NCBI GenBank assembly: GCA_021814065.1
Contig: JAKAIZ010000003.1
Span: 1-45,387 of the forward strand
Direction: 5' to 3'
Length of the DNA: 45,387 bases
Source: Nitrospirota bacterium
Lineage (GTDB): Bacteria > Nitrospirota > Thermodesulfovibrionia > Thermodesulfovibrionales > UBA6898
Position 1 is the stretch's first letter; each line of letters opens with the position of its first letter. The notes beneath the pieces were generated by a model that did no database searches, was not told where the DNA came from, and saw only the letters and a program-made list of their open reading frames with translations. The position numbers and the translations under genes are program-made. Below, piece after piece: positions 10,633 through 45,339 of the stretch.

Positions 10633-11958
10633 TTACCGCGAACGTCTGCGGTCCATGATATAGAGACTTTTCGCGAAGGTCTTCGCGTACTGCTTTAGTT
10701 CGGTCACCTTGAGCGCGACCTCCTTCGGCTCACGTATCAGGGTGCGGTCCGTGTTTACGACCGCTATCGAGATAGTCATGATACCGAAAATCGCCGGGTT
10801 GTCGTTCCGGTCGACCGACACGATAAATCCCTTCTTCAGGTCATCAGGATCGTAAAAATTGACTATCCCCCTGTCGAATTCTTCGATGATCTTGTTGCAG
10901 ATCGCGTGGACCCTTTCGGGTGAGCAGATGATAACAAAGTCGTCCCCGCCGATATGCCCGAGAAAATCATGCAACGTGCCGATTTCCTTTTTGATGCCGG
11001 ACAATACCTCCGCAAGCCACTTGATTACATCACTGCCCCTCGCATATCCATACCGGTCGTTGAAGGCCTTGAAATTGTCTAGATCGACAAGGCAGAACGA
11101 GAATTTCTCGGTGTCGTTCAGGCGGGTCAGGAGCTCCTTTTCGATTGCGAGATTCCCCGGTAGCTTTGTGAGGGGGTTCGCATCGAGGTTGGTCACCTCG
11201 AGTTCTTTCAGCCTCACCGACATCTCCTTAAAGGAGATAGCGAGGTCCGCGAGTTCGTCGGCGCCCTGTATCTCCGGGAGATAATCGAAATTGCCGCTGC
11301 GGATCGAGTGGGTGGCTGCCTTTAATCTGTTGATGGCGGTGGTCAGATGGCTGGTAAGCAACGAGGCGAAGAGGATGCCGAAAACGAAAGAAACTGCGCT
11401 AAGAATGATGGTAACCATCAGGACCCTTTCGCCCAGGGTGCCCGACCGGCTGATTTGCTCGTTTTGGCGGGCCTTGTTTTTGATGTCGATGTCCCGGATG
11501 GAAGAGAGTATCCTGTTGAACCCGTCCTTGAGGGCAGCCGAAGACACCTCGACCGCTTCCTTTCTGTTGCCTGATTTGATAAGCGAAACTTCTTTCGCAA
11601 AAAGCTGGTCGTATTTGTCGTGGTAGGAGACGATGTTTTCGATAGGATTTTTCAGGGTGGGCTGTGCAGAGCCGATGTCTGACAGGAGCGATTTGAAGTC
11701 CCTGGACCTGTTCCAGAAGAGATTTTCCGAATCTGCCTGCCCGAACGTGAGAAACCGCTGCTCATAGAGGTCCTGAGCCTGTATGCAGTCAGTCAGTTTG
11801 ACGATCTTCTCCCCTACCGCCATGTCGGAAAAGATGATCTCGGAAGTGACCTGGTTGAGCTCCATAAGCCCCCAGATGGCATAGATCCCTACGATCAGGG
11901 TGAATATCACCATAAGGATGTATCCGAAAAAAATCTGTTGTCGCAGCGTCAGTCTCAT
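10633..11958 (-). CDS. Membrane GGDEF-domain nucleotidyl cyclase with HAMP (candidate Hypr-type cGAMP/c-di-GMP synthase)
   Basis: Two TM helices flanking a periplasmic helical domain, HAMP, then LVDLDNFKAFNDRYGYARGSDVIKW...HIGGDDFVI; Ser at the GD position of canonical GHxxGDxVL. Confidence 0.85.
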   Translation of the reverse strand: MRLTLRQQIFFGYILMVIFTLIVGIYAIWGLMELNQVTSEIIFSDMAVGEKIVKLTDCIQAQDLYEQRFLTFGQADSENLFWNRSRDFKSLLSDIGSAQPTLKNPIENIVSYHDKYDQLFAKEVSLIKSGNRKEAVEVSSAALKDGFNRILSSIRDIDIKNKARQNEQISRSGTLGERVLMVTIILSAVSFVFGILFASLLTSHLTTAINRLKAATHSIRSGNFDYLPEIQGADELADLAISFKEMSVRLKELEVTNLDANPLTKLPGNLAIEKELLTRLNDTEKFSFCLVDLDNFKAFNDRYGYARGSDVIKWLAEVLSGIKKEIGTLHDFLGHIGGDDFVIICSPERVHAICNKIIEEFDRGIVNFYDPDDLKKGFIVSVDRNDNPAIFGIMTISIAVVNTDRTLIREPKEVALKVTELKQYAKTFAKSLYIMDRRRSR

Positions 11959-29924: not shown

Positions 29925-30878
29925 ATGAAAAGCACCCTGCAGAAAATCACGATGGCCTTGCCGGCGGCACTCCTTATGGTATCGGTGTCTGCGCCTGCTG
30001 CAAACGCCGAAATAAAGGCCTCATATCTCTACAGCCTTTCTGATTTTTACGGACTGGTCCCATACAGCTGGACAAGGGTGGTCATCGATAACTGGCATGC
30101 AGAGACATACGTCTTGTTCCAAAACAACGTCAAGGTATTCAACGGCAACGGCATGGAGGTCTATGAATTCGGCGATGACATCGACGTCGGCATTATCTAT
30201 GACGTCGCTATAGATGAAAAAACGAACATCTTCCTTCTTACGAACAATAAACAGAAATATTCTATTGTCCGCTGCAATTACCGGGGAGAGCCTAAAGAGA
30301 CGATTGAGATCAAAGGCCTTCCGGATGAACTGAAGGGCTTCATACCGTTCCGCATGGTATACCGCAAGGGGAACTTTTACCTGGCATCCCTAAGCCATAT
30401 GCAGATAGCGGTGGTCGACCGCAACGGCAATTGCCTTGCAAGCTATGACATCAAGCCGATGCTCGAGCTGAGCGAGGAAGAAAAGAAAAAAGGAAGCGAG
30501 ATGGACATGGTCGGCTTTAATGTAGACAACGACGGCAACATGCTCTTCACCATCCCTGCAATCTTCAAGGTCTTCAGGCTGACGCCTGACCGCAAGCTCT
30601 CTTCGTTCGGCCAGCCGGGCAGCATACCCGGCAAGTTCGGCATCGTCTCCGGAGTCGCCGAGGACAACCGCGGCAATTATCTGGTCGTGGACAAATTAAA
30701 GAGCGTGGTGATGGTCTTTGACAAGGATTACACATTTATTACGGAGTTCGGGCATAGGGGGGTGAACCCCGACAATTTTATCGTGCCTGATGAAGTCGCA
30801 ATAGACAAGGGTGACAAGATCTATGTGACACAGACCCGTAACAGGGGGGTGAGCGTTTTTCGTCTGGCGTATGAATAA
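29925..30878 (+). CDS. Secreted NHL/6-bladed beta-propeller protein
   Basis: Signal peptide MKSTLQKITMALPAALLMVSVSAPAANA; repeated propeller blades (FGQPGSIPGKFGIVSGVAEDNRGNYLVVDKLKSVVMVFDKDYTFITEFGHRG). Confidence 0.85.
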   Translation: MKSTLQKITMALPAALLMVSVSAPAANAEIKASYLYSLSDFYGLVPYSWTRVVIDNWHAETYVLFQNNVKVFNGNGMEVYEFGDDIDVGIIYDVAIDEKTNIFLLTNNKQKYSIVRCNYRGEPKETIEIKGLPDELKGFIPFRMVYRKGNFYLASLSHMQIAVVDRNGNCLASYDIKPMLELSEEEKKKGSEMDMVGFNVDNDGNMLFTIPAIFKVFRLTPDRKLSSFGQPGSIPGKFGIVSGVAEDNRGNYLVVDKLKSVVMVFDKDYTFITEFGHRGVNPDNFIVPDEVAIDKGDKIYVTQTRNRGVSVFRLAYE

Positions 30879-31001
30879 TTCACGGCAGTTTTTTGCAGTA
30901 AAATGGCTGCCCAATGAAGGAGGTGGTAAGAACAGAATTTAACTAAAAGCATTGGTTGGAAGAGGACGCCTTGCAGCAAACAGGCGTTCAGGTTATGAAC
31001 C

Positions 31002-31105
31002 AATCCTCCGAAAAGAGTAAACCCATCGCAAGGTGGCGACACAAAGCCGACGGGTCCCCAAGGGACGGCCGGGTTGCCGGAAGAAAAGACAACTTGGAGG
31101 ATTTA
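31002..31105 (+). promoter_or_regulatory. GEMM-I family riboswitch (c-di-GMP-I/cGAMP class) plus Shine-Dalgarno-type expression platform
   Basis: TCCTCCGAAAAGAGTAAACCCATCGCAAGGTGGCGACACAAAGCCGACGGGTCCCCAAGGGACGGCCGGGTTGCCGGAAGA: AAACC...GNRA-capped stem (CCATC-GCAA-GGTGG)...CAAAGCC...GGGTTgCCGG core; 5' strand AATCCTCC (31002-31009) exactly complements GGAGGATT of the downstream ribosome-binding site (31096-31103). Confidence 0.85.
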
Positions 31106-32356
31106 ATGAAAGCAGTAAAAGTGACAATAATTCTCGTCGCTGCAGCGCTCCTTCTCTTTGGGCTCAGCGGTATAAGCTTTGCCTTCCATTCGGGCGGCGT
31201 TGCCGAGTGCATGGGCTGCCACAATATCCACGATGCAAAGAGCAGCTCGGCCCTTCTGGTCGGCACCGACATCAGCTCGACCTGTCTGAGCTGCCACAAC
31301 AGCGCCAGCCCGGGCGGCTACCACATTTCGACCGATGCTTCGGTCATGCCTACGGGGACCCCGCCTGTCAACATGACCCCCGGCGGCGACTTCGCCTGGC
31401 TGAAGAAGACCTACACCTACAGCCCGCGTCCCGGCACGACGACGACCGAGCCCGGCGACGAGCACGGCCACAACATCGTTGCAGTTGATTTTGGTTATGC
31501 GGCTGACGGAACCAACACCACCGCCCCCGGCGGCACCATGGACGCCACCCAGCTCGCCTGCAACAGCTGCCATGACAACCACGGCAAGCTAAGAAGGCTT
31601 TCCGACGGTACTTTCAATACCACCGGCGCCCCGATCATCGCATCGGGTTCTTACAATAATAGCCCGCTTCCTGCAGCAGGCCAGGCTGTAGGCGCATACA
31701 GGCTTCTCCGCGGAACCGGTTCAAGCGCCGGCTCAGGCGGACAAGTCTTTACCTCGATCTTCAACGCGGTTGTCCCCAGCACCTACAACAGGACTGAGGC
31801 TACCACTGCTACCCGCGTAGCATATGGCGCCGGCATATCCGACTGGTGCGGTACTTGCCATCCTGACATGCATTCCGCCACCAGCTCGAAGATGACCCAC
31901 CCGGTCAACCAGCAGCTCGGCACCACAGTGGCGGGCAACTACAATGCCTACATCGGTAGCGGTAACATGACCGGAACGCAGGCGACTTCTTATGATTCTA
32001 TCGTTCCGTTCCAGACCGACAACACAACCGATTTTGCTACGCTGGCGGCCCTTGCGGTCAATGACGGCACCGTTACGACTGGTCCCGCCACTTCCGACAG
32101 GGTGATGTGCCTTAGCTGCCACAGGGCGCATGCAACCGGTTTTGCACATATGACAAGATGGAACAACGAAGGCGAGTTCATCGCAGCCGACGGCGTATGG
32201 CCGGGCACCGACTCCCCGAGCTCGATCGCGAGCGCGGCGAAGTATGCGATGGGCCGTACGGTTGCCGAGATGACGAGGGCTTACAACGACAAGCCTGAGA
32301 CCAACTATGCGACCTATCAGAGGTCTCTATGCAACAAGTGCCACGCAAAAGACTAA
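31106..32356 (+). CDS. omcS: OmcS-like hexaheme c-type cytochrome (nanowire cytochrome family)
   Basis: Signal peptide; 6 CxxCH; OmcS hallmarks FHSGGVAECMGCHNIHD, MTPGGDFAWLKKTYTY, GHNIVAVDFGYAAD, YNRTEATTATRVAYGAGIS, CLSCHRAHATGF, YQRSLCNKCHAKD. Confidence 0.9.
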   Translation: MKAVKVTIILVAAALLLFGLSGISFAFHSGGVAECMGCHNIHDAKSSSALLVGTDISSTCLSCHNSASPGGYHISTDASVMPTGTPPVNMTPGGDFAWLKKTYTYSPRPGTTTTEPGDEHGHNIVAVDFGYAADGTNTTAPGGTMDATQLACNSCHDNHGKLRRLSDGTFNTTGAPIIASGSYNNSPLPAAGQAVGAYRLLRGTGSSAGSGGQVFTSIFNAVVPSTYNRTEATTATRVAYGAGISDWCGTCHPDMHSATSSKMTHPVNQQLGTTVAGNYNAYIGSGNMTGTQATSYDSIVPFQTDNTTDFATLAALAVNDGTVTTGPATSDRVMCLSCHRAHATGFAHMTRWNNEGEFIAADGVWPGTDSPSSIASAAKYAMGRTVAEMTRAYNDKPETNYATYQRSLCNKCHAKD

Positions 32357-32390
32357 TTGCGTAGCTTGAGTAAGCAGTATTTTTTTTCGC

Positions 32391-32425
32391 AAAAGGGCCG
32401 GTTGCCGGCCCTTTTGCCTTTTTTT
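32391..32425 (+). terminator. Intrinsic terminator after the first OmcS-like gene
   Basis: AAAAGGGCCGG-TTG-CCGGCCCTTTT followed by a T tract. Confidence 0.85.
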
Positions 32426-32480: not shown

Positions 32481-33755
32481 ATGCCAAGGCCAGGTATTAC
32501 GAGAATAAAAACAGTGCTTTTCACAGTAGCGATAGCAAAAATATTTATGTTATTGAGCAGTGGGGAGAGCTTCGCCTTTCATTCGGGCGGTGTTGCCGAG
32601 TGCATGGGCTGTCACAACATCCATGATGCCAAAAGCGCAAGCGCGCTTCTGGCAGGGACCGATATCAGTTCCACCTGTCTCGACTGTCATGGCGAATCAG
32701 GGGCCGGCGGCTACCACATAGCGACCCCGGACGCCGATATGCCGGCCGGGACTCCGCCCGGCAATATGACCCCGGGAGGCGACTTCGGCTGGCTGAAGAA
32801 GGCGTATACCTACAGCCCCCGCACGGGCACTACAACTGTCGAGCCGGGCGAGAGGCACGGTCACAACATCGTTGCGGTGGATTTCGGGTACACTGCCGAT
32901 TCAACCAACACAACGGCCCCGGGTGGAGACATGGATGCCACGAAGCTTGCCTGCAACAGCTGCCACGACAACCACGGCAAGTTAAGAAGGATGGGCTCCG
33001 ATGCGGCGCCAACTTTTGGTGTAACAGGCGCCCCGATCATCGCCTCGGGTTCTTACGGCAACAGTCCTGCTCCTGCAGCAGGCCAGGCTGTCGGGGCCTA
33101 TCGGCTGCTTCGCGGACCTGGTTCTACCGCCGGCTCAGGAGGCAAGACATTCACTGCAGTATTCAATGCCGCAGTGCCGGCGACCTACAACAGGTCGGAG
33201 GCAACCACGCCGACTCGCGTTGCCTACGGATACGGGATATCGGAATGGTGCGCAACTTGCCATCCCGACATGCATACCGCCACGAGCTCGAAGATGACCC
33301 ACCCTGTCAATCAGGGATTGAGCTCTGCCGAAGTGGACAACTACAGCAAATATAAAGGCAGCGGCATCATGACCGGATCTGCGGCAACGTCATACGACTC
33401 TCTTGTCCCGTTCCAGACGGACAACACGAGAAATTATACGACCCTCAAGTCGTTAGCGGTGAATGACGGCAGTAAGGCTACCGGGCCGGCTACAAGCGAC
33501 AGGGTCATGTGCCTCAGCTGCCACAGGGCCCATGCCACCGGCTGGCCGCATATGACGAGATGGAACAATGATGGCGAGCTGATCGCGGTAGACGGCGTTT
33601 GGCCGGGGACCGATTCCCCGAGCTCAATCGCCAGTCAGGCGAAGTATGCACAGGGCCGTACAGTGACCGAAACGACAGTGGCATACAACGGCGCAACGAT
33701 GCACTATGCCTCATATCAGAGGTCTCTCTGCAACAAGTGCCACGCAAAAGACTGA
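32481..33755 (+). CDS. Second OmcS-like hexaheme c-type cytochrome (tandem paralogue)
   Basis: 424 aa with 6 CxxCH (CMGCH, CLDCH, CNSCH, CATCH, CLSCH, CNKCH); highly similar along its length to the upstream gene. Confidence 0.9.
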   Translation: MPRPGITRIKTVLFTVAIAKIFMLLSSGESFAFHSGGVAECMGCHNIHDAKSASALLAGTDISSTCLDCHGESGAGGYHIATPDADMPAGTPPGNMTPGGDFGWLKKAYTYSPRTGTTTVEPGERHGHNIVAVDFGYTADSTNTTAPGGDMDATKLACNSCHDNHGKLRRMGSDAAPTFGVTGAPIIASGSYGNSPAPAAGQAVGAYRLLRGPGSTAGSGGKTFTAVFNAAVPATYNRSEATTPTRVAYGYGISEWCATCHPDMHTATSSKMTHPVNQGLSSAEVDNYSKYKGSGIMTGSAATSYDSLVPFQTDNTRNYTTLKSLAVNDGSKATGPATSDRVMCLSCHRAHATGWPHMTRWNNDGELIAVDGVWPGTDSPSSIASQAKYAQGRTVTETTVAYNGATMHYASYQRSLCNKCHAKD

Positions 33756-33777
33756 TTGTGCAGATAAAGCCGTTATT

Positions 33778-33810
33778 CTAAAAAAGGGCCGGCTTACGGC
33801 CCTTTTTTAG
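33778..33810. terminator. Bidirectional-type intrinsic terminator after the second OmcS-like gene
   Basis: CTAAAAAAGGGCCG-GCTTA-CGGCCCTTTTTTAG, 14-bp perfect stem. Confidence 0.85.
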
Positions 33811-33948
33811 TTGAATTTGGAATATTCTTGTTCTAAGATTTTATTAGTGTTTCGTTAGTTATTATGCGAAATGAGGCATTATCGTGCGGAAACCGCTTTT
33901 TTTGCGCGGCAGCGGATTGCTGTGTGGCATGAACAAAAGGGAGTCATC

Positions 33949-35388
33949 GTGAAGATCTGTATGATATTTTATATTAATAAGTGTAGGCCCCTTTTCCTCA
34001 TTTCGGTTCTTCTGTCGATCTCGTTTCTTCTGTCCTGCCAGGCAAAACCGTTTTCGATCAAACCCGCCCTCGAGGAAAACGGCGAGGTTTTTCTCTACCT
34101 TCAGCCCCTGTCTCAGGAGGCGGAGCGGCTCAAATTCAGCCTGAAGGCTGTATACGCCCAAAAGGATGACGGGAAAGAGATCCCCCTGGACCTCTCTTTT
34201 ACGGGGATCGCCTTCGGCAAAGACGTAAGACAGAGATGCCTAGCCACCGGGGAGCTTCCTCCCGGCAATTACCGGGGGCTATCTTTTAAGGTGAAGGATG
34301 CCACGCTTACTACGGAGGAAGGCGCGGCCGGACTTAGCGTACCCGAAAAACCTACCCCCGTCGAATTTCCGTTCACAATACGGAGGCAGAAGGCGTCTCT
34401 TCTTGCGATGACGTTGAAATACAGGGAATCGGTAATCGAGGGGTTCCGCTTCAGCCCTTCGTTCTCTGTCTCGGTCCCGGCCAGGCCCCCCACCGGGCTG
34501 TCGGGCTATGTGTCGAACAACGACGCCCACGACGTCGCGGTCATCGACAAAGGCGCAGGCGAGGTGACAGGGATGATAGCAACGGGGACCGGTCCCCACG
34601 GCATGGTCATAGACCAGATGCGCGGGAAGGTCTATGTGGCGCTCACCGGAGACGATGCGATCGACGTGATCGATTCAGGCGCCGGCGACGTGGTCGGCAG
34701 GATTCAACTTAGAAGAGGGGACAACCCGGAAGAGCTTGCGCTTGTCCCGGGCAACAGGACGCTGCTTTCCACGAATGCCGGCTCGGACACTGTGAGCTTT
34801 ATCGATGCCGGCTCCCTGCTCGAGACGGAGCGCGTTTCGGTCGGGCAGAACCCTGTCTCCCTTCTCATCGATAGCACCGGCAGCCGCGCCTATGTCTTCA
34901 ATACCCTCTCGAACACCATTTCTGTAATAGACATCACGGGGAAGACGGTCATCGCGACGCTCTCGACTGAACCCGAACCATTACGTGGACAGTTCAACCG
35001 CAGGGGAGACAGGCTGTACGTGATCCATGGGAGGTCGCCCTATCTCACTATTATAGACGTCCCATCCCTTTCGGTGGTGAGGAGGGAGTTCCTGGGCATG
35101 GGGGCAAGCTCCATCAAGGTGGACAGCAGGACCGACATGCTCTATATCGGCAAGAAGTTCGAAGACGGCGTCTCGGTATACGACCCGCTTTCTTTTCAGC
35201 CTGTCGATTATATTCAGACCGGCGCAGCGGTCGGATACATGACTATAGACGGCGATGAAAACAATCTCTATCTCGTGATGCCCGAGAAAAAAAGCCTCAG
35301 GGCGGTGAACCTTGTCAGCAGAAAGACGGTCTTTGAGATTGATTTCTGCGAATCCCCTTATTGGATTACCGTCATGGGAGAGAGGTAG
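33949..35388 (+). CDS. YVTN-type beta-propeller lipoprotein
   Basis: GTG start at 33949 preceded by GGGAG; lipobox FLLSC; propeller repeats (VSNNDAHDVAVIDKGAGEVTGMIATGTGPHGMVIDQMRGKVYVAL, ...NTLSNTISVIDITGKTVIATL). Confidence 0.85.
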   Translation: MKICMIFYINKCRPLFLISVLLSISFLLSCQAKPFSIKPALEENGEVFLYLQPLSQEAERLKFSLKAVYAQKDDGKEIPLDLSFTGIAFGKDVRQRCLATGELPPGNYRGLSFKVKDATLTTEEGAAGLSVPEKPTPVEFPFTIRRQKASLLAMTLKYRESVIEGFRFSPSFSVSVPARPPTGLSGYVSNNDAHDVAVIDKGAGEVTGMIATGTGPHGMVIDQMRGKVYVALTGDDAIDVIDSGAGDVVGRIQLRRGDNPEELALVPGNRTLLSTNAGSDTVSFIDAGSLLETERVSVGQNPVSLLIDSTGSRAYVFNTLSNTISVIDITGKTVIATLSTEPEPLRGQFNRRGDRLYVIHGRSPYLTIIDVPSLSVVRREFLGMGASSIKVDSRTDMLYIGKKFEDGVSVYDPLSFQPVDYIQTGAAVGYMTIDGDENNLYLVMPEKKSLRAVNLVSRKTVFEIDFCESPYWITVMGER

Positions 35389-37562
35389 ACAGCCTGAAAT
35401 ATCTATTCCCATTGGTAGTGTTGGTCTTCGGCGGGATGCTGCTGCCTGCCGATGCCCTTGCCGACGGCATCATTGGTTATCTGGACCTGAGCTACTCTAA
35501 CTCCCATACTGAAACGACAGACGCGAGCGGCGCCTCCACCGACACGAAGCTGAACTCGTTCAATCAGCAGCTTAACCTTACCCTGACAAAAACAATCTAC
35601 CCTAACCTGAGGCTGCTGGCAAACGGCATATTCGAAAACGACAAGATCAATTCAGAGACAAACGGCGTTGAAACCGACTCAACTACAAGGATCCTCAGGC
35701 CCTTCGTAGACCTTACCCTAAGGACGCCGCTTTATACTGCAGGGGTGAACTACACACGGAGAGAGACGAAGAATTCGGTTGCGGACCTGCCCTCCACTAC
35801 CGACGTGAACGAGGCTTACAGCGCCATCCTCGGCTGGAGGCCGGATGGTTTTCCTTCCTTCGACATGCGTTATGTGCATACGAACACCTTTGACAAGGAG
35901 CATCTCGTCCGTGACAACGCGGACGACTTCTTCTCCCTTCAGTCCCAGTACGACCCGGTGAGGGGTGTGGGGCTCAGGTATAGGGGGACCTACGACGACA
36001 GCAAGGAAAAACTTCAGGAGCTCGAGACAAAGAACCTGACGAATGACGCAAGGATAACCTATGACGGGAAGTTTCTGCGCGACCGGGCGACCGTCAGTGC
36101 GAGCTATGAGATTACGACGAGGTCCACCGAGATCATCACGAGCGGCCAGGGGGAGGTGGATTTTCAGATATTCCCCTTTTCCGGGCTCTCGTCGATCGAC
36201 GATACGCCACTACAAGGTGTGCTCGACCCTAACCCGGCCCTGATCGACGGCAACCTGACTGCCGCTGCCGGCATCAACATAGGTCTTCCCCAGGTGGGAG
36301 GGGACACGAAACCGAGAAACATAGGGCTTGATTTCGTCGCAAATACAGAGGTGAACGAGCTGTTCCTGTATGTGGACAGAGAGCTTCCTGCAGAGGTGGC
36401 CGCCTCTTTTTCGTGGGACGTCTATATCAGCCCGGACAATCTGAACTGGACCCTCTGGAGCCCCCTCGTAAAGGCGCAATACGATGCCTTCCGGAACAGG
36501 TTCGAGATAGGCTTTCAGAACGTGCAGACGAGGTATATCAAGGTGGTGGTCAATCCCCTTTCCCCAGCGGTGTTGGGGGCGACGCAATTTCCTAACATCC
36601 TTGTGACCGAAATGGAGGCATACATCAGGAGAGCGGCTGAAGGTGTGAAGGGGAAGATAAAAAGCACCACGCACAACGTCGGTCTGGATGGCAGGTACAG
36701 GCTTTTGGACGATCCCCTCCTCTATTACGAGGTCTCCTATTTTCTGATCCAGCAGACGGGGGTCATTTCTTCGAAGATTTCGACCTTGTCAAACGGCTTC
36801 TCGGTGAGCAAGAGGCTCAGCAGGGTTTTTTCCGGGAATGCGAGAATAGCGAGGGAGGACAGCGTCGACCGGCTCGGCAATACCCACGCGTACGTATACA
36901 GCGCGGCGCTCAATGCGACCCCGCTTAAGACGCTTAGCCACAGCCTCACCTTTAGCGGCCGAAACGAGACCAACCCCCAGGGGAAGCTCGACCGGAACAG
37001 CATTTTTCTCTATAACTCGGCCGACTTATATACCGGCATCAGCCTCTATGCAAGCGGAGGGCTCGGCTTCTCAACACTCGAGACCGGCAGAAAACAGGAC
37101 AGTACCATCTTAAACGGAGGTACAAATATCGTACCGAACCGCTACCTCTCTCTGAACCTGAACTATGCCTCTACTGTCACGGACGAGACCGGCGGAGGTC
37201 TTCCGGAGGCCTCATTCACCACGAGGAGGACGGACGTTGGGGTGACGTGCAGACCTTTCCCGCTATTGTATCTCGTTGCCTCCTGGGGCTGGGTGACGGA
37301 CATGGACAGAAAGATGACACTCCAGAATTATGGGGTGAACTGGACGCCGTTCGTCGACGGACAACTCCAGTTCAGCTTTGCGTATAATGAGAACCTGCAG
37401 TCGGACATTAACGGAAAGGTGAAGAATCTTCTCGCGGCCGTGCGCTGGAACATCACACAGCGGTCCTACCTTGACGTCGCCTACCAGGTGATCGATACTT
37501 CCTCCGTAACGGAGACCGCCAAGGCCAATATTTTTAGTACTACTTTGAGGATATATTATTGA
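35361..37562 (+). CDS. Outer-membrane beta-barrel protein with internal discoidin (F5/8C)-like domain
   Basis: Signal-like N-terminus, cysteine-free, alternating amphipathic strands, C-terminal ...ANIFSTTLRIYY; internal segment SFSWDVYISPDNLNWTLWSPLVKAQYDAFRNRFEIGFQNVQTRYIKVVVNPL. Start uncertain: TTG 35361 or CTG 35394. Confidence 0.75.
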   Translation: MDYRHGREVDSLKYLFPLVVLVFGGMLLPADALADGIIGYLDLSYSNSHTETTDASGASTDTKLNSFNQQLNLTLTKTIYPNLRLLANGIFENDKINSETNGVETDSTTRILRPFVDLTLRTPLYTAGVNYTRRETKNSVADLPSTTDVNEAYSAILGWRPDGFPSFDMRYVHTNTFDKEHLVRDNADDFFSLQSQYDPVRGVGLRYRGTYDDSKEKLQELETKNLTNDARITYDGKFLRDRATVSASYEITTRSTEIITSGQGEVDFQIFPFSGLSSIDDTPLQGVLDPNPALIDGNLTAAAGINIGLPQVGGDTKPRNIGLDFVANTEVNELFLYVDRELPAEVAASFSWDVYISPDNLNWTLWSPLVKAQYDAFRNRFEIGFQNVQTRYIKVVVNPLSPAVLGATQFPNILVTEMEAYIRRAAEGVKGKIKSTTHNVGLDGRYRLLDDPLLYYEVSYFLIQQTGVISSKISTLSNGFSVSKRLSRVFSGNARIAREDSVDRLGNTHAYVYSAALNATPLKTLSHSLTFSGRNETNPQGKLDRNSIFLYNSADLYTGISLYASGGLGFSTLETGRKQDSTILNGGTNIVPNRYLSLNLNYASTVTDETGGGLPEASFTTRRTDVGVTCRPFPLLYLVASWGWVTDMDRKMTLQNYGVNWTPFVDGQLQFSFAYNENLQSDINGKVKNLLAAVRWNITQRSYLDVAYQVIDTSSVTETAKANIFSTTLRIYY

Positions 37563-37629
37563 CAACAGGTGAGGCCGTAAATTAATATAGAAAATCCTTG
37601 CTAAACTATATAAACTACGCGAGAAAAAC

Positions 37630-38214
37630 ATGGCAAATATAAAAAAAATAGCAGCAAATAGTGTGATCGCATTTTCAGTTCTCTTTTCTTTGTTGGCCTG
37701 CGGAGGCAAAGCCTCTACGTATTGGCACGACCCCGAAATGGATTTCGGCTCGGTCAAGACGGTTGCCGTGATGCCTTTTGTAAACGCTACAAGGGACCAG
37801 TTCGCCGCTGAAAGGGTAAGGGCTGCTTTTATCAACAGGCTCCTGGCGACAGGCGGAATCTATGTGATGCCGAAAGGCGAGGTCGCAAGGGGTATTTCGA
37901 GGGCGGGGATTACGGACCCCACTGCTCCCTCGCCCGAGGAAATCCAGAAATTTGCCGGAATTGTAAAAGTCGATGCGGTAATCACCGGTACGGTGAGCGA
38001 ATATGGAGAGGTAAGATCCGGAACGTCGGCAGCTAACGTCGTGTCGGTCAGCATGCAGATGATCGAGGCGCAGACAGGCAGAGTCGTCTGGAGTGCGTCT
38101 TCAACAAAAGGCGGCATTGACGTAAGTGACAGACTCTTTGGAGGTGGAGGGCAACCCATGGCTGACGTTACTGGAAAGGCTGTGGATGACATTATCGACA
38201 AGCTATTTAAGTAG
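37630..38214 (+). CDS. CsgG/GNA1162-like lipoprotein
   Basis: Lipobox SLLAC; VKTVAVMPFVNATRDQFAAERVRAAFINRLLATGGIYVMP...VDAVITGTVSEYG...SMQMIEAQTGRVVWSA. Confidence 0.75.
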   Translation: MANIKKIAANSVIAFSVLFSLLACGGKASTYWHDPEMDFGSVKTVAVMPFVNATRDQFAAERVRAAFINRLLATGGIYVMPKGEVARGISRAGITDPTAPSPEEIQKFAGIVKVDAVITGTVSEYGEVRSGTSAANVVSVSMQMIEAQTGRVVWSASSTKGGIDVSDRLFGGGGQPMADVTGKAVDDIIDKLFK

Positions 38215-39391
38215 ACCTTTTCTCTTCCTTTCCCTAGTGATGATCCTTCTGGGAAGTTGTGCGAGCAGTGGACTCTCCGGCGCGGTGAAATCACTTGACG
38301 CAAAGGGAAAATATCGTATAGCCGTGTTGCCGATTGAAAACCTGAGCGGCGCTCCTGCACCATTTAAGGACCTGCGCCTCTCGATTATGCAAAAAATGAA
38401 GCAGCGGGGCATGACCCTGCTCGGAGAAGAAGCACTTGATCGATTTATGGAAAAGAACCGCATACGCTATATAGGAGGTCTTGATGGACCGACGGCCGAC
38501 GCGTTCAGGAAGGAAGCGGATACGGACGCAGTCCTCATCAGTTCCCTGGAACGCTATGACGAGACGTTTCCTGCAAAGATCTCATTGATCTGCCGGTTGG
38601 TCTCGACGGGTGAGCACCCCGTGGTTCTCTGGGCGGACAGGGCCGGCCTGTCAGGCAATGATTCGCCGGGGCTCCTCGGGCTCGGGATAATTGAGGACCC
38701 CCTCGTGCTCACTGATAAGGCGTTAACGCTTTTGGCGGATTCTCTCGCCGGATACCTTTCGGCTGGGGAGAAGAAGGGCGATGGTGTTGCCGCGAGAAGG
38801 CAGCCCCCGCTGGAGGGCCCATACCGCTCCCCTGTGACCGGCTATCGTTATCAGAGAGTCGAGGTCGGGGGGAGAAGCAGTTTCCGGCCGAGGATAGAGT
38901 ACCGCTCCCTTGTCATACGGCCGGACAAGAGATACCGGGTGGCGGTCCTGCCTTTCCAGAATCTGAGCGTGAGGAAGAACGCCGGGGAGATCGTGGCGCT
39001 GGAGTTTATAGGGCAATTGAGCAAACTGGGAAACGTCAGTGTCGTCGAACCCGGCGTGATAAGAGAGGAGATGCTTAGCAAGAGGATTATCATGTCCGGC
39101 GGCGTTTCCCTTGCGGATGTGGACCTCCTGAGCGACTACCCGGAAGTCGACCTGATCGTCTCCGGTACGGTCTTCGATTATCAGGATTATATCGGATTTG
39201 GCGGTAAACCGAAGGTGGATTTCTCGGCGCAGGTCATAGACAGGAAGAGCAAGCAGCTGGTCTGGGCCTCGGAAAGTCAGAATGAGGGCGACGACGGCGT
39301 CTTGTTCTTTGACCTGGGAAGATTAAATACTGCCAATGCCATGGCATCTGAAATGGTCGGTATTACCGTCGGGCAGATGATGTCTGAATAG
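38186..39391 (+). CDS. Lipoprotein with two tandem CsgG-like lobes
   Basis: ATG at 38186, lipobox LLGSC; two similar units starting KGKYRIAVLPIENLSG and DKRYRVAVLPFQNLSV; second unit ...VDLIVSGTVFDYQ...SAQVIDRKSKQLVWASES. Confidence 0.7.
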   Translation: MTLSTSYLSRPFLFLSLVMILLGSCASSGLSGAVKSLDAKGKYRIAVLPIENLSGAPAPFKDLRLSIMQKMKQRGMTLLGEEALDRFMEKNRIRYIGGLDGPTADAFRKEADTDAVLISSLERYDETFPAKISLICRLVSTGEHPVVLWADRAGLSGNDSPGLLGLGIIEDPLVLTDKALTLLADSLAGYLSAGEKKGDGVAARRQPPLEGPYRSPVTGYRYQRVEVGGRSSFRPRIEYRSLVIRPDKRYRVAVLPFQNLSVRKNAGEIVALEFIGQLSKLGNVSVVEPGVIREEMLSKRIIMSGGVSLADVDLLSDYPEVDLIVSGTVFDYQDYIGFGGKPKVDFSAQVIDRKSKQLVWASESQNEGDDGVLFFDLGRLNTANAMASEMVGITVGQMMSE

Positions 39392-39413
39392 AATTTCTAC
39401 ATAAGAGGTGATT

Positions 39414-41141
39414 ATGGTCATTAAGAAGGTCTTTTCGGTAGTTGTTTTATTTCTGTTTTCTGCGTCTGTGGCAGCTGCAGCCGGGGAGACGCCGTCAGCG
39501 GCTGGGGCAGAAAAAAAGTCGGACGCTGACAAGGAGTATATCACCTTGCGCGTCCCTTTCTTTTCGGACCGCTTCTCCGCGTTTCCGGTCGCGCTGGTGA
39601 ACGGGGACCCGATTATGCTTGAAGACCTCAAGAAGGTGGTCGGGGCCCGTCACGAGGGCTTGAAAGAGGAAGAGAAGTCGGCCGTCATAGATTTTTCTCA
39701 TATGCTCGGCCAGCTGATAAACGCGAAGCTGATCGTGCAGGAGGGGAGAAATATCGGGCTTGACGAACTTCCGGAGGTGAAAGCGGCTATAGACAACTTC
39801 TCCAAGTCCACCATGCGGGAGATGCTGCAGAAGCGGCAGATTGCGGACATCAAGGCGGACGAGTCCGAAGCAGAAAGGATATACAAGGAATCGGTCAAGG
39901 AGTACAAGATCAAACTGGTCGTGTTCGACAAGGAAGATGCCGCCAAAAAGACCCGCGATGGGATAAAGGCGGGCAAGTCGTTTGAAGAACTCGTGGACAA
40001 GGCTGTGGCCGGGAATGAGGCGAAGAAGAAGGAAGAGGAGCATATGAAGGCCAAAGACCTTTCGCCCCAGATTGCGCAGGTTATTGCCGGGATGAAGGCT
40101 GGAGACGTGAGCGGCGTCGTGAAGGTTCCCGATGAAAAGGCCGGCGCCCGGTTTGCCCTGGTGAAACTCGAGGAGATCCGGTTCCCGGATGACCCGAAGG
40201 CAAAGGAGGAGGCCCGGAAAACGGCCCTCTCAGAAAAGCAGTGGGCGGCGCTGACCAAGTACAACAGGGCACTGGCCAAGAAGTATGTGAAGCTGGACAA
40301 GAAGGTCTTCGATTCCATAGATTACGCCACTCCAGGTAAAACCTTTGAGAGCTGGTTAACGGACAGGAGGGTCATCGCCCGGATAAAGGGAGACAAGCCC
40401 CTGACCGTCGGAGAACTAACCGCGGAGGTCCAGAGGAAATATTACCACGGCGTAGACGCCAAGTCTGCCAAGAGGATAACGAAACAAAGGATGATCGAGG
40501 TCTACGAATCGGTGGTCGCCAGGAAAATCCTGCTGCTGGAGGCGATGAAACAGGGCATCGACAAGACACAGGAGTACAAGGACAAGGTGAAGGAGTATGA
40601 GAACGGCGTGATATTCGGTATGTTCGTCAGGAAGGTCGTGGAGCCTGACAGCAAACTCAAAGAAGAGGAAGTCAAGGCGTACTATGATGATCACATCAAG
40701 GACTACACATACCCGGAAATGGTGCAGCTGAGCAGTCTTGTCTTTGCCAAGAGGCCGGAGGCTGAATCCGCGCTCGAAAAACTCCAGAAAGGAGACGACT
40801 TTTTGTGGGTGAAGGACAATGCTGAAGGTCAGGTGACCGGGACCGAAGACCCCCTGAGATTCGACGGCGCAACGCTTTTTGTCACTAATCTGCCTGATGA
40901 ACTGCAGAAGGTGGTCTCGGGCGCCAAGGCCGGCACGTATGGAATGTACTCGGCCACGGGCCAGTATTATGTCGTTTCCATACGCGACATAATACCCCCG
41001 AAGAAACAGCCTTACGAGGAGGTCAAGGAAGCGATTGCGAAGAAACTCTACAATGAGAAGATCAACAAGGTGACTGCAGATTGGGCTGCAAAACTCAGGG
41101 CGTCTTCCGAGATAAAGATTTACCTCTCGAATTCCAAATAA
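39414..41141 (+). CDS. SurA/PpiC-like periplasmic peptidyl-prolyl isomerase/chaperone
   Basis: Signal peptide; SurA-N-like VALVNGDPIMLEDLKKVV; parvulin-like segments (VVFDKEDAAKKTRDGIKAGKSFEELVDKAV... and SSLVFAKRPEAESALEKLQKGDDF...VSIRDIIPPKKQPYEEVKEAIAKKL). Confidence 0.8.
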   Translation: MVIKKVFSVVVLFLFSASVAAAAGETPSAAGAEKKSDADKEYITLRVPFFSDRFSAFPVALVNGDPIMLEDLKKVVGARHEGLKEEEKSAVIDFSHMLGQLINAKLIVQEGRNIGLDELPEVKAAIDNFSKSTMREMLQKRQIADIKADESEAERIYKESVKEYKIKLVVFDKEDAAKKTRDGIKAGKSFEELVDKAVAGNEAKKKEEEHMKAKDLSPQIAQVIAGMKAGDVSGVVKVPDEKAGARFALVKLEEIRFPDDPKAKEEARKTALSEKQWAALTKYNRALAKKYVKLDKKVFDSIDYATPGKTFESWLTDRRVIARIKGDKPLTVGELTAEVQRKYYHGVDAKSAKRITKQRMIEVYESVVARKILLLEAMKQGIDKTQEYKDKVKEYENGVIFGMFVRKVVEPDSKLKEEEVKAYYDDHIKDYTYPEMVQLSSLVFAKRPEAESALEKLQKGDDFLWVKDNAEGQVTGTEDPLRFDGATLFVTNLPDELQKVVSGAKAGTYGMYSATGQYYVVSIRDIIPPKKQPYEEVKEAIAKKLYNEKINKVTADWAAKLRASSEIKIYLSNSK

Positions 41142-41154
41142 GCGAGGAGATGAA

Positions 41155-43137
41155 ATGGGCATAATACGTATCACCAAGAGGACCGCGCTGGTAGGGATGT
41201 TAGCCTTCCTTTGCGGGCTCATTCTTTATTCCGTAAACGGCACTGCCCTTGCGCAGAAGAAGTTTGCGAGCAAGGGCTGTCTCGATTGTCATACAAAATT
41301 TGCTGATAAGTATATGGGGATGAAAGATGTGCATGCCGTGGTGAAGGAGAAGAATTGCGAGGCGTGCCATCTAAGACACGGAAGGGTCCCGAAGCTGATC
41401 CTCAAGAATACCGGAAACGAGGTCTGTTATCCCTGCCACAGCAAAGAGAAGATCGGGATGGACAAGTCCCACGTGCATACTGCGGTGAAACTCGGGAAAT
41501 GTACCCTCTGCCACGACCCGCATGCCTCACAATCGAGCCATCTGTTGAAGGCCGAGGGCAACGACGTCTGTTATCTCTGCCACAAGAAGGAAGACTACCA
41601 AAAGAAGGTGGTGCATAAGGTCCTCGAGACAACCGGCTGCAGGACCTGTCATCTTGCGCACAGCTCCGATCAAAAGGGGCTCCTAAAGCAAGCGGAGACG
41701 CCCCTATGCCTTTCGTGTCACGACAAGGGGAAGGACTCCTTCAAGAAGGCCCACGAGAACTACCCAGTCGAGACCAAACCCTGCACGATATGCCATAACC
41801 CACATTCATCGTCCCAGCCGAAGCTTCTCAAGACGAGTACTCACAACCCGGTCGCATCGTCGGGCTGCGACATGTGCCATAACCCTCCCGCTTCCCAGAA
41901 GCCTTTCGAGACAACGAAAAGCGGGAGCGATTTATGCGTTACCTGCCACGACATAGCGGCACTGAAGGCCGGCGGCACCTTTGAACATCCGCCTTTCCAG
42001 GGCGGAATGTGCGGTTCCTGTCATGACCCTCACGCCTCGGAAAACCCGAAGCTGCTCGCCCGGGAAGGGAACAAACTCTGTTTCTCCTGCCATGCAGATA
42101 AAGAGGCGAAGGTCGCGACCCCGCACGGTGCGGTGATCAGCGGGAAAGGATGTCTTTCCTGCCATATGCCCCATGCGGCAAAGAACGAAAAACTCCTCGT
42201 GGCAAAAGGCGGTGAACTCTGCTTTACCTGTCACGCCAAGGTGAAAGAGAGCGAGAATGCGAAGGACGTGCATATGCCGTTTAAGCAGCAGATGTGCACG
42301 TCATGCCACAATCCTCACGGCTCCGACTACGGCCTCATGCTGAAGAACAGGATGGACAAGGTCTGCTACTCCTGCCACGTCGATGCCGAGGCGAGGTTCC
42401 TTCAGGTGTATACCCACAAGCCGGTCACAGACGGTCTCTGCAACTCCTGTCACGACGGGCATAGTACAAATGGAAATAAGCTCCTGAAAGAGACCGGCTC
42501 GAAGCTTTGTGCGCAATGCCACAAGGTCCTCATGAAAGAGGCAGGCACCAGCGGCGGATCTACTCATGTGCCTTTTAAAGAGGGGATGTGCCTGACCTGC
42601 CACAGCCCGCATGGAAGCCCCAACGTAGGCATGACCGTGGAGAGGCAGGACAAGCTCTGTTTCTCCTGCCATAGCGAGCTTGGTGAAACGATAAAGGGAG
42701 GGGTGAGCAAACACTCGCCCGTTGTGAACGGCCAATGCACAAAGTGCCATAATCCTCACCGGTCGAAATTGAGCAAGCTGAGGGTTGCCGAGGGTCCTGA
42801 TCTCTGTCTGACCTGTCACAAGGACCTGAAGGCGAAGATGGAGAAGGAGAAGGCCCATCCCCCAGCGGCAAGCGACTGCCTGCGGTGCCATAAGCCACAC
42901 AGTTCGTCACAGCCGAGGCTTGTTGCCCAGCCGCTCCTGCAACTCTGCGGCGACTGTCACGACCTGAAGGGGGCCTCCTTCGGAAAGGCGCATATCGGGA
43001 TCGATCCGGCGGTTATGAATTGTGTGAGCTGCCATACACCCCACGCGTCGAAGGACCCGAAACTGTTCAAGGAAAATGTCCATCCTCCCTTTGCCGGGAG
43101 GTCATGTGAAGAATGCCATGTGGTGGAAAAGCGATGA
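41155..43137 (+). CDS. 26-heme c-type cytochrome
   Basis: 660 aa; 26 CxxCH motifs counted by eye; repeated CxxCHxPH doubled-CXXCH pattern; N-terminal TM/signal sequence. Confidence 0.92.
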   Translation: MGIIRITKRTALVGMLAFLCGLILYSVNGTALAQKKFASKGCLDCHTKFADKYMGMKDVHAVVKEKNCEACHLRHGRVPKLILKNTGNEVCYPCHSKEKIGMDKSHVHTAVKLGKCTLCHDPHASQSSHLLKAEGNDVCYLCHKKEDYQKKVVHKVLETTGCRTCHLAHSSDQKGLLKQAETPLCLSCHDKGKDSFKKAHENYPVETKPCTICHNPHSSSQPKLLKTSTHNPVASSGCDMCHNPPASQKPFETTKSGSDLCVTCHDIAALKAGGTFEHPPFQGGMCGSCHDPHASENPKLLAREGNKLCFSCHADKEAKVATPHGAVISGKGCLSCHMPHAAKNEKLLVAKGGELCFTCHAKVKESENAKDVHMPFKQQMCTSCHNPHGSDYGLMLKNRMDKVCYSCHVDAEARFLQVYTHKPVTDGLCNSCHDGHSTNGNKLLKETGSKLCAQCHKVLMKEAGTSGGSTHVPFKEGMCLTCHSPHGSPNVGMTVERQDKLCFSCHSELGETIKGGVSKHSPVVNGQCTKCHNPHRSKLSKLRVAEGPDLCLTCHKDLKAKMEKEKAHPPAASDCLRCHKPHSSSQPRLVAQPLLQLCGDCHDLKGASFGKAHIGIDPAVMNCVSCHTPHASKDPKLFKENVHPPFAGRSCEECHVVEKR

Positions 43138-43148
43138 AAGGAGAAGGT

Positions 43149-44429
43149 ATGAAACTGTACCGTCGATATAGATATGCGCTCGTCTTGTCCGTGGTCTGGC
43201 TTGTCTGTCTCGCAGCCCTGGCCCATGGCGAGGATAACAAGTTCAAACTGAAAATGGGCGCAAAGGGGAAGATCTGTCTGAACTGTCACGTGGACTTCCA
43301 GGACAAGATGAAGGACCCCTTTGTGCATACCCCCGTCAAGACCGGAGACTGCACCGGCTGCCACAGCCCCCATGCGTCTTCGCACGCAAAAATGCTTGCG
43401 GAACAGGTGAGCAAGGTCTGCGCCGGATGTCACGGCGAGATCGTCCCAAAAAATGCGGTCAGCGCGCACAAGGTAGTGGTCGAGGGCGGATGCATAAAGT
43501 GCCATGACCCGCACTCCGCTAAAAACAAGTTCAATCTGCTGAAGGCGGGCAACGAGCTCTGTTTCGGCTGCCACAAAGATATGGGAGATGCAGTCGGAAA
43601 GGTGAAGTTCAGGCATGCGCCTGTTGAGAAGGGATGTCTCACGTGTCATAACCCCCACGCTTCAGAGAAATCAGCGTTTCTGCTTACGGATGCCGTACCT
43701 TCTCTGTGTCTGGGGTGCCATAAAACGAACGCGCCGTCGTTTGCGAAGCAGCATATGAATTATCCTGTTGCAAAGGCCCGCTGCACGACCTGTCATAACC
43801 CTCACGGGTCCAACAGGGGCGGGATCCTCTATGACAATGTTCATCAGCCGGTCGCCAACAGGATGTGCAACCAGTGCCATATGGACCCTTCGTCGCCGAC
43901 TCCATTTGCAACGAAGAAGCCGGGGTACGAGTTGTGCCGGACATGTCACAGTAACGCCGTCAATGAGATGTTGGGCAAGAACAAGATCCACTGGCCGGTG
44001 CTTGGCAAGAAAGGCTGCCTAAACTGTCATAATCCGCACGCATCGACACAGGCTAAACTTCTGAGAGCGCCGATGATACCGCTCTGCAACACGTGTCATA
44101 ACGATACGATACAGAGGCAGGAACGCTCTCAGACCAAACATCCGCCGATACAGGAAGGCAACTGTACGATATGCCATAACCCGCACGCGTCGGACGCGGA
44201 TTTCCTCTTCGCCCAGCCGACGATTATCGGCGTCTGCAATACCTGCCACGACTGGAGGAACCATACCGGACACCCGCTTGGTGAAAAAGTCATGGATCCG
44301 AGGAACAGGAACGTGGCCGTAACATGTGAAAGCTGCCACCGGGCGCACGGCACCGAGAACAAGCATTTCATCTGGTTTACGCCGATGGATGAAATGTGCA
44401 CCCAGTGCCACAAACAGGTAGGGAGGTGA
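43149..44429 (+). CDS. 16-heme c-type cytochrome
   Basis: ATG at 43149 with upstream AAAGGAG; 16 CxxCH motifs counted by eye; doubled-CXXCH repeats (CHNPHAS). Confidence 0.92.
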   Translation: MKLYRRYRYALVLSVVWLVCLAALAHGEDNKFKLKMGAKGKICLNCHVDFQDKMKDPFVHTPVKTGDCTGCHSPHASSHAKMLAEQVSKVCAGCHGEIVPKNAVSAHKVVVEGGCIKCHDPHSAKNKFNLLKAGNELCFGCHKDMGDAVGKVKFRHAPVEKGCLTCHNPHASEKSAFLLTDAVPSLCLGCHKTNAPSFAKQHMNYPVAKARCTTCHNPHGSNRGGILYDNVHQPVANRMCNQCHMDPSSPTPFATKKPGYELCRTCHSNAVNEMLGKNKIHWPVLGKKGCLNCHNPHASTQAKLLRAPMIPLCNTCHNDTIQRQERSQTKHPPIQEGNCTICHNPHASDADFLFAQPTIIGVCNTCHDWRNHTGHPLGEKVMDPRNRNVAVTCESCHRAHGTENKHFIWFTPMDEMCTQCHKQVGR

Positions 44430-44433
44430 TCCA

Positions 44434-45339
44434 ATGACAAGAACGTATATAAAAATCTTTGTTGTAGTTTTCGTGCTTTCGCTGGCGACCGCTTCATTCG
44501 GCGCCGCGGTGCAGATGATTTTCAGTTCCTCGGTCTATGGCGACGCTAAGGGAAACGGGTTGAAGCTCCCCGAAGGTGTCGCCTGCAGGGGGAATGTCCT
44601 AGTAGTTGCCGATACTGGAAACGGCCGGCTGCTGAAATACACGGTCGACGGCTCGACGGTAAAAGGCGGGCAGGAGATCAAGGTTGCGGAAGCGACAGAC
44701 CCCGTGAAGGTGCAGATGAATTCCAAGGGCGATATTTTCGTCCTGGACGGAAAACTGCACCGGATTGCCCGGCTTTCTCCTGAGGGGATATTCAAGGGTT
44801 ATATCGATCCTGCCGGCGTGCCGTCTCCTTCTGAGTTTATCACCAAGAGCTTCAAGATCGATGGCGCGGACAATATCTATATCCTCGATGTATTTTCCGG
44901 GCGCGTACTTGTCCTTGATCCCTCGGGAAAGTACGTGAGGCAGGTGGCGTTCCCGGAGAACTACGGATTCATCACGGACCTTGCAGTGGACCAGAAGGGC
45001 GACATTTATCTTCTCGACGGCGCAGACGCAAGGGTATATGAGGCGCAGGGAGACGGCTCGAAGGGATTCTCTGCGGTGACGAAGGATATGGAGCAGGACA
45101 TGAATTTCCCTGCAAATATGATCGTGGACAACAGCGGACAATTGTACCTTGCCGACCAGAACGGCGGCGGCGTGGTGGTCCTCGGACCGGACGGCTCTTT
45201 CAGGGGCCGCCCGATCGTCTTCGGATGGAAAGAAGGTCTTGTCCGGTATCCGGCTGAGCTTTCCATCAATGAAAACGGGGTCTTCTTTGTGGCAGACAGG
45301 GAAAACAGCCGCGTTCAGGTTTACACGCTGGTGAAATGA
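44434..45339 (+). CDS. Secreted NHL/6-bladed beta-propeller protein
   Basis: Signal peptide MTRTYIKIFVVVFVLSLATASFGA; NHL repeats (LPEGVACRGNVLVVADTGNGRLLKYTVDG; FVADRENSRVQVYTLVK). Confidence 0.85.
   Translation: MTRTYIKIFVVVFVLSLATASFGAAVQMIFSSSVYGDAKGNGLKLPEGVACRGNVLVVADTGNGRLLKYTVDGSTVKGGQEIKVAEATDPVKVQMNSKGDIFVLDGKLHRIARLSPEGIFKGYIDPAGVPSPSEFITKSFKIDGADNIYILDVFSGRVLVLDPSGKYVRQVAFPENYGFITDLAVDQKGDIYLLDGADARVYEAQGDGSKGFSAVTKDMEQDMNFPANMIVDNSGQLYLADQNGGGVVVLGPDGSFRGRPIVFGWKEGLVRYPAELSINENGVFFVADRENSRVQVYTLVK

Follow-up and report, generated by a model that had tools for sequence, protein, structure and literature searches.

A GEMM-I riboswitch with adenine at position 20 before an OmcS-type cytochrome gene of Nitrospirota, a candidate cGAMP-preferring or dual-ligand translational switch

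cGAMP riboswitches have so far been tied mainly to Geobacter. A 45,387-nucleotide stretch of DNA (the window), in which an earlier sequence-only reading had placed a GEMM-I riboswitch of the cGAMP type upstream of an OmcS-like nanowire cytochrome gene in a genome possibly outside Geobacter, raises the question of which ligand such an element would sense in its host and how it would act on the gene. The host belongs to the Nitrospirota (Thermodesulfovibrionia): relatives of the product of the gene at 31106-32356 (+) are 73-95% identical to it and come from Nitrospirota MAGs where labelled, several of their genomes fall in the genus or class of the window, and one is labelled Thermodesulfovibrionia, phylum Nitrospirota. 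These relatives led us to reject a Geobacter origin of the window and bear out the suspicion of a host outside that genus. The presence of OmcS genes in Thermodesulfovibrionia is already on record (PMC8478452), and a search of the open-access literature turned up no cGAMP riboswitch described from Thermodesulfovibrionia or Nitrospirota.

The 416-aa product of the gene at 31106-32356 is similar to the PDB OmcS structures 6ef8/6nef over residues 27-416 (phmmer, E 3.8e-109) and carries six CxxCH motifs; by this full-length similarity and motif count it is a predicted six-heme, OmcS-like nanowire cytochrome, the target that had been proposed. An intrinsic terminator with a 13-bp stem and a T tract (32389-32417, +) follows, and behind it lies a second OmcS-like paralogue (32481-33755, +; 6ef8 E 1.1e-100) that is 76% identical to the first and has no GEMM-I element of its own, since the Rfam cmscan gave no further riboswitch match in the window. 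Upstream of the leader is a gene for a 6-bladed beta-propeller protein (Pfam DUF5128; 29925-30878, +). The genes downstream (33871-45339, +), a candidate electron conduit by genomic context, encode a beta-propeller protein, two lipoprotein-like proteins, a PPIase, two large multihaem cytochromes and an NHL protein, as well as a 733-aa protein without a Pfam match. The neighbourhood of the omcS genes thus fits an extracellular electron-transfer cluster.

The riboswitch lies where the sequence-only reading had put it. Rfam cmscan of the 45-kb window matched a GEMM-I (c-di-GMP-I class) aptamer at 31006-31081 (+) to RF01051 with 52.3 bits (E 1.7e-7; gathering cut-off 35 bits), the sole RNA match in the 45 kb to reach its gathering threshold, so that the covariance-model check suggested with that reading came out in its favour. 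RF03167 (c-di-GMP-I-GGC), a family of the same clan, scored the element at 47.8 bits, below its cut-off of 59. In Vc2 numbering, read from the sequence and the cmscan alignment, A18, G19, A20, G21 and U22 correspond to positions 31014, 31015, 31016, 31017 and 31018, A45, C46 and A47 to 31041, 31042 and 31043, and the equivalent of C92 to 31077; the earlier hand alignment to Vc2 proved correct in both A20 and the retained A47. The pocket pairs are G21-C46 (31017/31042) and U22-A45 (31018/31041). A GCAA loop is present, and alignment and pair counts recover P1, P2 with its GNRA loop, and P3 with A47 and the ligand-pairing C92. Eighteen homologous leaders were aligned, taken from loci of Nitrospirota and of one MAG each of Desulfocapsa and Geobacter. 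Pairing within the aptamer is kept in 97.3% of alignment cells and 10 pairs have altered on both sides, a conservation equalled in none of 500 shuffles, which excludes chance for the aptamer. That the element belongs to GEMM-I is practically certain. A sub-threshold SraG match elsewhere in the window (33702-33807) overlaps a terminator hairpin and was taken as chance.

As to the ligand, the aptamer has the adenine at position 20 that marks the GEMM-Ib (cGAMP) subclass in sequence. Changing A20 to G turns the Gmet_0970 riboswitch from cGAMP to c-di-GMP (PMC6456294), and A20 therefore points to cGAMP here. The replacement of C22-G45 by U22-A45 had also been pointed out; it is confirmed, yet nearly every G20 homologue has it too, so that U22-A45 is uninformative on the ligand and was rejected as a cGAMP mark. 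The 21-46 pair complicates the assignment. A Geobacter MAG (G413) carries 25 GEMM-I elements, and the bulk of those with A20 read AUACUAAACC...GGAAAGCC, with a flipped C21-G46 pair, a pattern found in 1 of 295 Nitrospirota genomes. The window aptamer departs from this bulk in having G21-C46, as does the A20 leader of the omcS gene in the same MAG; we did not treat C21-G46 as strictly defining for GEMM-Ib. For the OmcST riboswitch of G. sulfurreducens a response to either ligand, cGAMP or c-di-GMP, is reported (PMC6456294), and position 20 has been called a selectivity factor and not a hard filter (PMC9262584). Given the differing 21-46 pocket and this reported behaviour of OmcST, we call the element cGAMP-preferring or dual.

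The genome also encodes candidate sources of cGAMP. A profile search gave 16 matches to PF00990, and the base-reading residue is Asp in all but two GGDEF proteins and Ser in those two only. One of the two is a GacA-like GAF-GGDEF cyclase on another contig of the genome (C7, 3423-3941, -; NDTHGHLAGS and GGDEY), which satisfies the published Hypr rule of Ser with GGDE(F/Y) and whose best PDB match is the GacA fusion 6D9M (E 2.6e-26), with the serines aligned. The other, a TM-HAMP-GGDDF cyclase (10633-11958, -; NDRYGYARGS...GGDDF), shares its contig with the riboswitch, from which it is 19 kb away; it has the Hypr-defining Ser at the GacA Ser348 position and GGDDF in place of GGDE(F/Y). In combining Ser with GGDDF it resembles GSU1937, an active enzyme despite its GGDDF motif and the second to make cGAMP in G. 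sulfurreducens (PMC8835794). By signature, then, both the Ser/GGDEY protein and the Ser/GGDDF protein are predicted cGAMP synthases. Homologues of the window cyclase occur in 47 of the 295 Nitrospirota genomes at E 1e-50. Strict co-occurrence of this cyclase type with A20 was rejected, as the cyclase is found in genomes without A20 matches; the Ser/GGDDF enzyme is also absent from two A20-bearing Nitrospirota genomes. In another Nitrospirota family without a GSU1937-type cyclase, A20 GEMM-I elements stand before exported proteins (L086 and L087, in G274 and G251).

The pocket and the cyclases bear directly on the most serious alternative, in which c-di-GMP is a further, or even the main, ligand of the aptamer, A20 having broadened the pocket so that the leader reports total cyclic dinucleotide. 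The dual response reported for OmcST, the description of position 20 as a selectivity factor, a G21-C46 pair like that of c-di-GMP aptamers and the many ordinary GG(D/E)EF cyclases with Asp in this genome all suit such a sensor, while the decisive role of A20 in Gmet_0970, the presence of Hypr cyclases and the repeated origin of A20 among the leaders, described below, speak against it, and we consider it the less likely account, though one of real weight. The label 'cGAMP type' thus holds in so far as A20 and the Hypr cyclases support it, and gives way where it implied strict selectivity, which the G21-C46 pocket and the reported dual response of OmcST make somewhat doubtful. From sequence we regard cGAMP as the probable physiological ligand.

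Control of the gene appears to act through its Shine-Dalgarno (SD) sequence. The aptamer ends 24 nt before the ATG; at least 15 homologous loci (Nitrospirota, the Desulfocapsa MAG and Geobacter MAGs) have a leader of this kind, conserved some 25 nt ahead of the start of omcS. The + strand has no terminator in the stretch from aptamer to ATG, and transcriptional terminator control was rejected on this ground; in the same genome, a hairpin with a T run is seen by eye behind the other A20 site and behind a canonical G20 site. In the predicted minimum free energy (MFE) fold the 10-nt anti-SD strand AAUCCUCCGA (31002-31011, +) pairs with UUGGAGGAUU (31094-31103, +), the SD strand of the omcS-like gene. 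Within AAUCCUCCGA, UCCG (31007-31010) doubles as the 5' strand of aptamer helix P1, whose 3' strand is CGGA (31078-31081, +), so that P1 (CUCCG/CGGAG) and the SD helix share nucleotides and are mutually exclusive. P1 is paired in 93.3% of cells in the 18 leaders; most GEMM-I elements outside window-type leaders end in CGAA, not CGGA. The complementarity of anti-SD and SD is also kept, with 87.6% of cells paired in the homologous leaders against 34-61% for slid partners. No covariation was seen in the SD helix of these leaders, as the SD itself is invariant. In 15 of 18 leaders the SD is buried in the MFE fold, completely so in the window leader, where the ligand-free prediction gives a probability of 0.000 that the SD is unpaired. 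With the missing terminator, this predicted sequestration supports the translational control that the sequence-only reading had proposed, and action through the SD is very likely.

Since the AAUCCUCCGA strand is shared by the SD helix and P1, ligand binding should free the start site. We accordingly favour, as moderately likely, an A20 GEMM-I element, cGAMP-preferring or dual, that turns on translation of an OmcS-type cytochrome in Nitrospirota when ligand binds. In the absence of ligand, AAUCCUCCGA would pair with UUGGAGGAUU and hide the ribosome-binding site; a cyclic dinucleotide would bind the nascent aptamer and draw UCCG into P1 with CGGA, and the formation of P1 would free the SD so that OmcS is made. 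The cGAMP would come probably from the GAF-GGDEY Hypr cyclase on contig C7 and perhaps also from the HAMP-GGDDF cyclase of the window. For the window leader the aptamer fold that leaves the SD open is, at equilibrium, 12.3 kcal/mol less stable than the fold that hides it. Ligand binding by itself would be unlikely to cover such a difference, from which we infer a kinetic, co-transcriptional capture of the aptamer, as has been argued for other GEMM-I switches (PMC9262584). The opposite direction, a translational OFF switch in which ligand stabilises the enclosed aptamer and the SD:anti-SD helix stays shut, is suggested by the closure of the SD helix round the whole aptamer, by the behaviour of Vc2, which is a translational OFF switch (PMC9262584), and by the P1 of the related pilM switch, which is weak without ligand (PMC9262584). 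It is nonetheless improbable, as P1, paired at that 93% level in the 18 leaders, uses the same nucleotides as the SD helix and the Geobacter cGAMP switches, OmcST included, are ON switches (PMC6456294). An ON direction is thus the likely one.

The base at position 20 varies among the homologous leaders. A20 is found in omcS-type leaders of the window, of G001, G004, G019, G132 (C172) and G111 (C75) and of two Geobacter-order genomes, the omcS gene being assumed in G019 and G132 C172, where the contig stops just past the start codon. G20 is found in G378, G403, G406, G409, G016, G042, G319 and others, and the leader of an omcS paralogue in the Geobacter MAG (L198, G413:C9) has C. On a maximum-likelihood tree of 18 OmcS proteins, position 20 requires at least three changes, and the repeated origin of A20 suggests a functional difference. 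Two genomes carry both states: G111 has one A20 and one G20 leader (the pair L092 and L165, contigs C75 and C113) whose coding starts, as far as seen, are identical past the first few codons, and G132 likewise has one of each (the pair L091 and L069, contigs C172 and C142), with aptamers identical except around positions 15-20, both pairs coming from MAGs with contig ends inside the gene, where strain mixing is possible. Of 295 Nitrospirota genomes, 8 show the strict A20 pattern, a lower bound, as the pattern misses variants such as a second A20 element of the window's own genome (L007/L169; C163:13883-13968, -), which precedes a 474-aa exported protein. That position 20 drifts neutrally and A20 has no regulatory meaning might be read from the A, G and even C (the Geobacter leader L198) seen in omcS leaders and from a cyclase distribution that does not track this base, but it too is improbable, given that the surrounding bases of the pocket vary little or not at all across the homologous omcS leaders, that the two G132 aptamers differ only around positions 15-20 and that position 20 is known to affect ligand choice strongly.

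Tentatively, the omcS genes of Nitrospirota and Geobacter may rest on a common translational riboswitch chassis, in which substitution of the single base at position 20 selects the ligand anew; some genomes would then hold two omcS copies, one with a cGAMP-type and the other with a c-di-GMP-type sensor. If so, two-copy genomes would wire the same nanowire to two second messengers. Near-identical natural aptamers that differ at position 20 would form a series on which the evolution of ligand specificity can be tested directly, and a cGAMP-type translational sensor on a Nitrospirota OmcS gene would extend cGAMP-controlled extracellular respiration to another phylum.

Comparison with known systems indicates what sets the window element apart. 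Like the Geobacter GEMM-Ib switches (GSU1761/pgcA, Gmet_0970), it combines the GEMM-I fold with A20, A47 and C92, stands before an extracellular cytochrome gene and has a Hypr cyclase in its genome. The main A20 set of the Geobacter MAG has C21-G46 and terminator-like T runs, whereas the window has G21-C46, an SD-sequestering leader and a host in another phylum. The window element also resembles a Geobacter MAG omcS leader (L075/L167), which has both the A20/G21-C46 pocket and the SD complementarity, and the G. sulfurreducens OmcST leader, compared here by its published description: both place GEMM-I before omcS-type genes, the OmcST genes being known cGAMP-switch targets, and OmcST is ON with cGAMP and reported as dual for cGAMP and c-di-GMP (PMC6456294). 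Vc2 of Vibrio cholerae shares the G21-C46 pocket and translational control but has G20 where the window has A20. Since GSU1761 works by antitermination (PMC6456294) and Vc2 is a translational OFF switch, the window platform differs from both. The window element is a real variant within a known riboswitch class, set in a new phylum and combining a probably translational platform with a specificity base that varies naturally.

Several further observations concern related elements. Within the window's genome, five other elements score above the RF03167 cut-off; the GEMM-I elements that exceed it include four with a flipped 21-46 pair (L003-L006). GEMM-I directly before a PilZ-like gene has G20 in this genome (C56, L171) and A20 in G002 (L038) and G011 (L055). 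In G016, a GEMM-I with the flipped pair, and after it a terminator-like hairpin, precedes one omcS paralogue (L121, C489), and the other omcS copy carries a window-type leader. An omcS leader without the aptamer (L062/L096; G400, SURF_23) retains the SD and an upstream GC hairpin, and two Geobacteraceae omcS leaders (L072, L080) lack a full aptamer and read AUCCUCUG...AAAGAGGAAAC, which may be a remnant. Finally, a AAGGAGGTGGT motif at 30915-30930, about 80 nt upstream of the window aptamer, recurs before several omcS leaders and could compete for the anti-SD strand.
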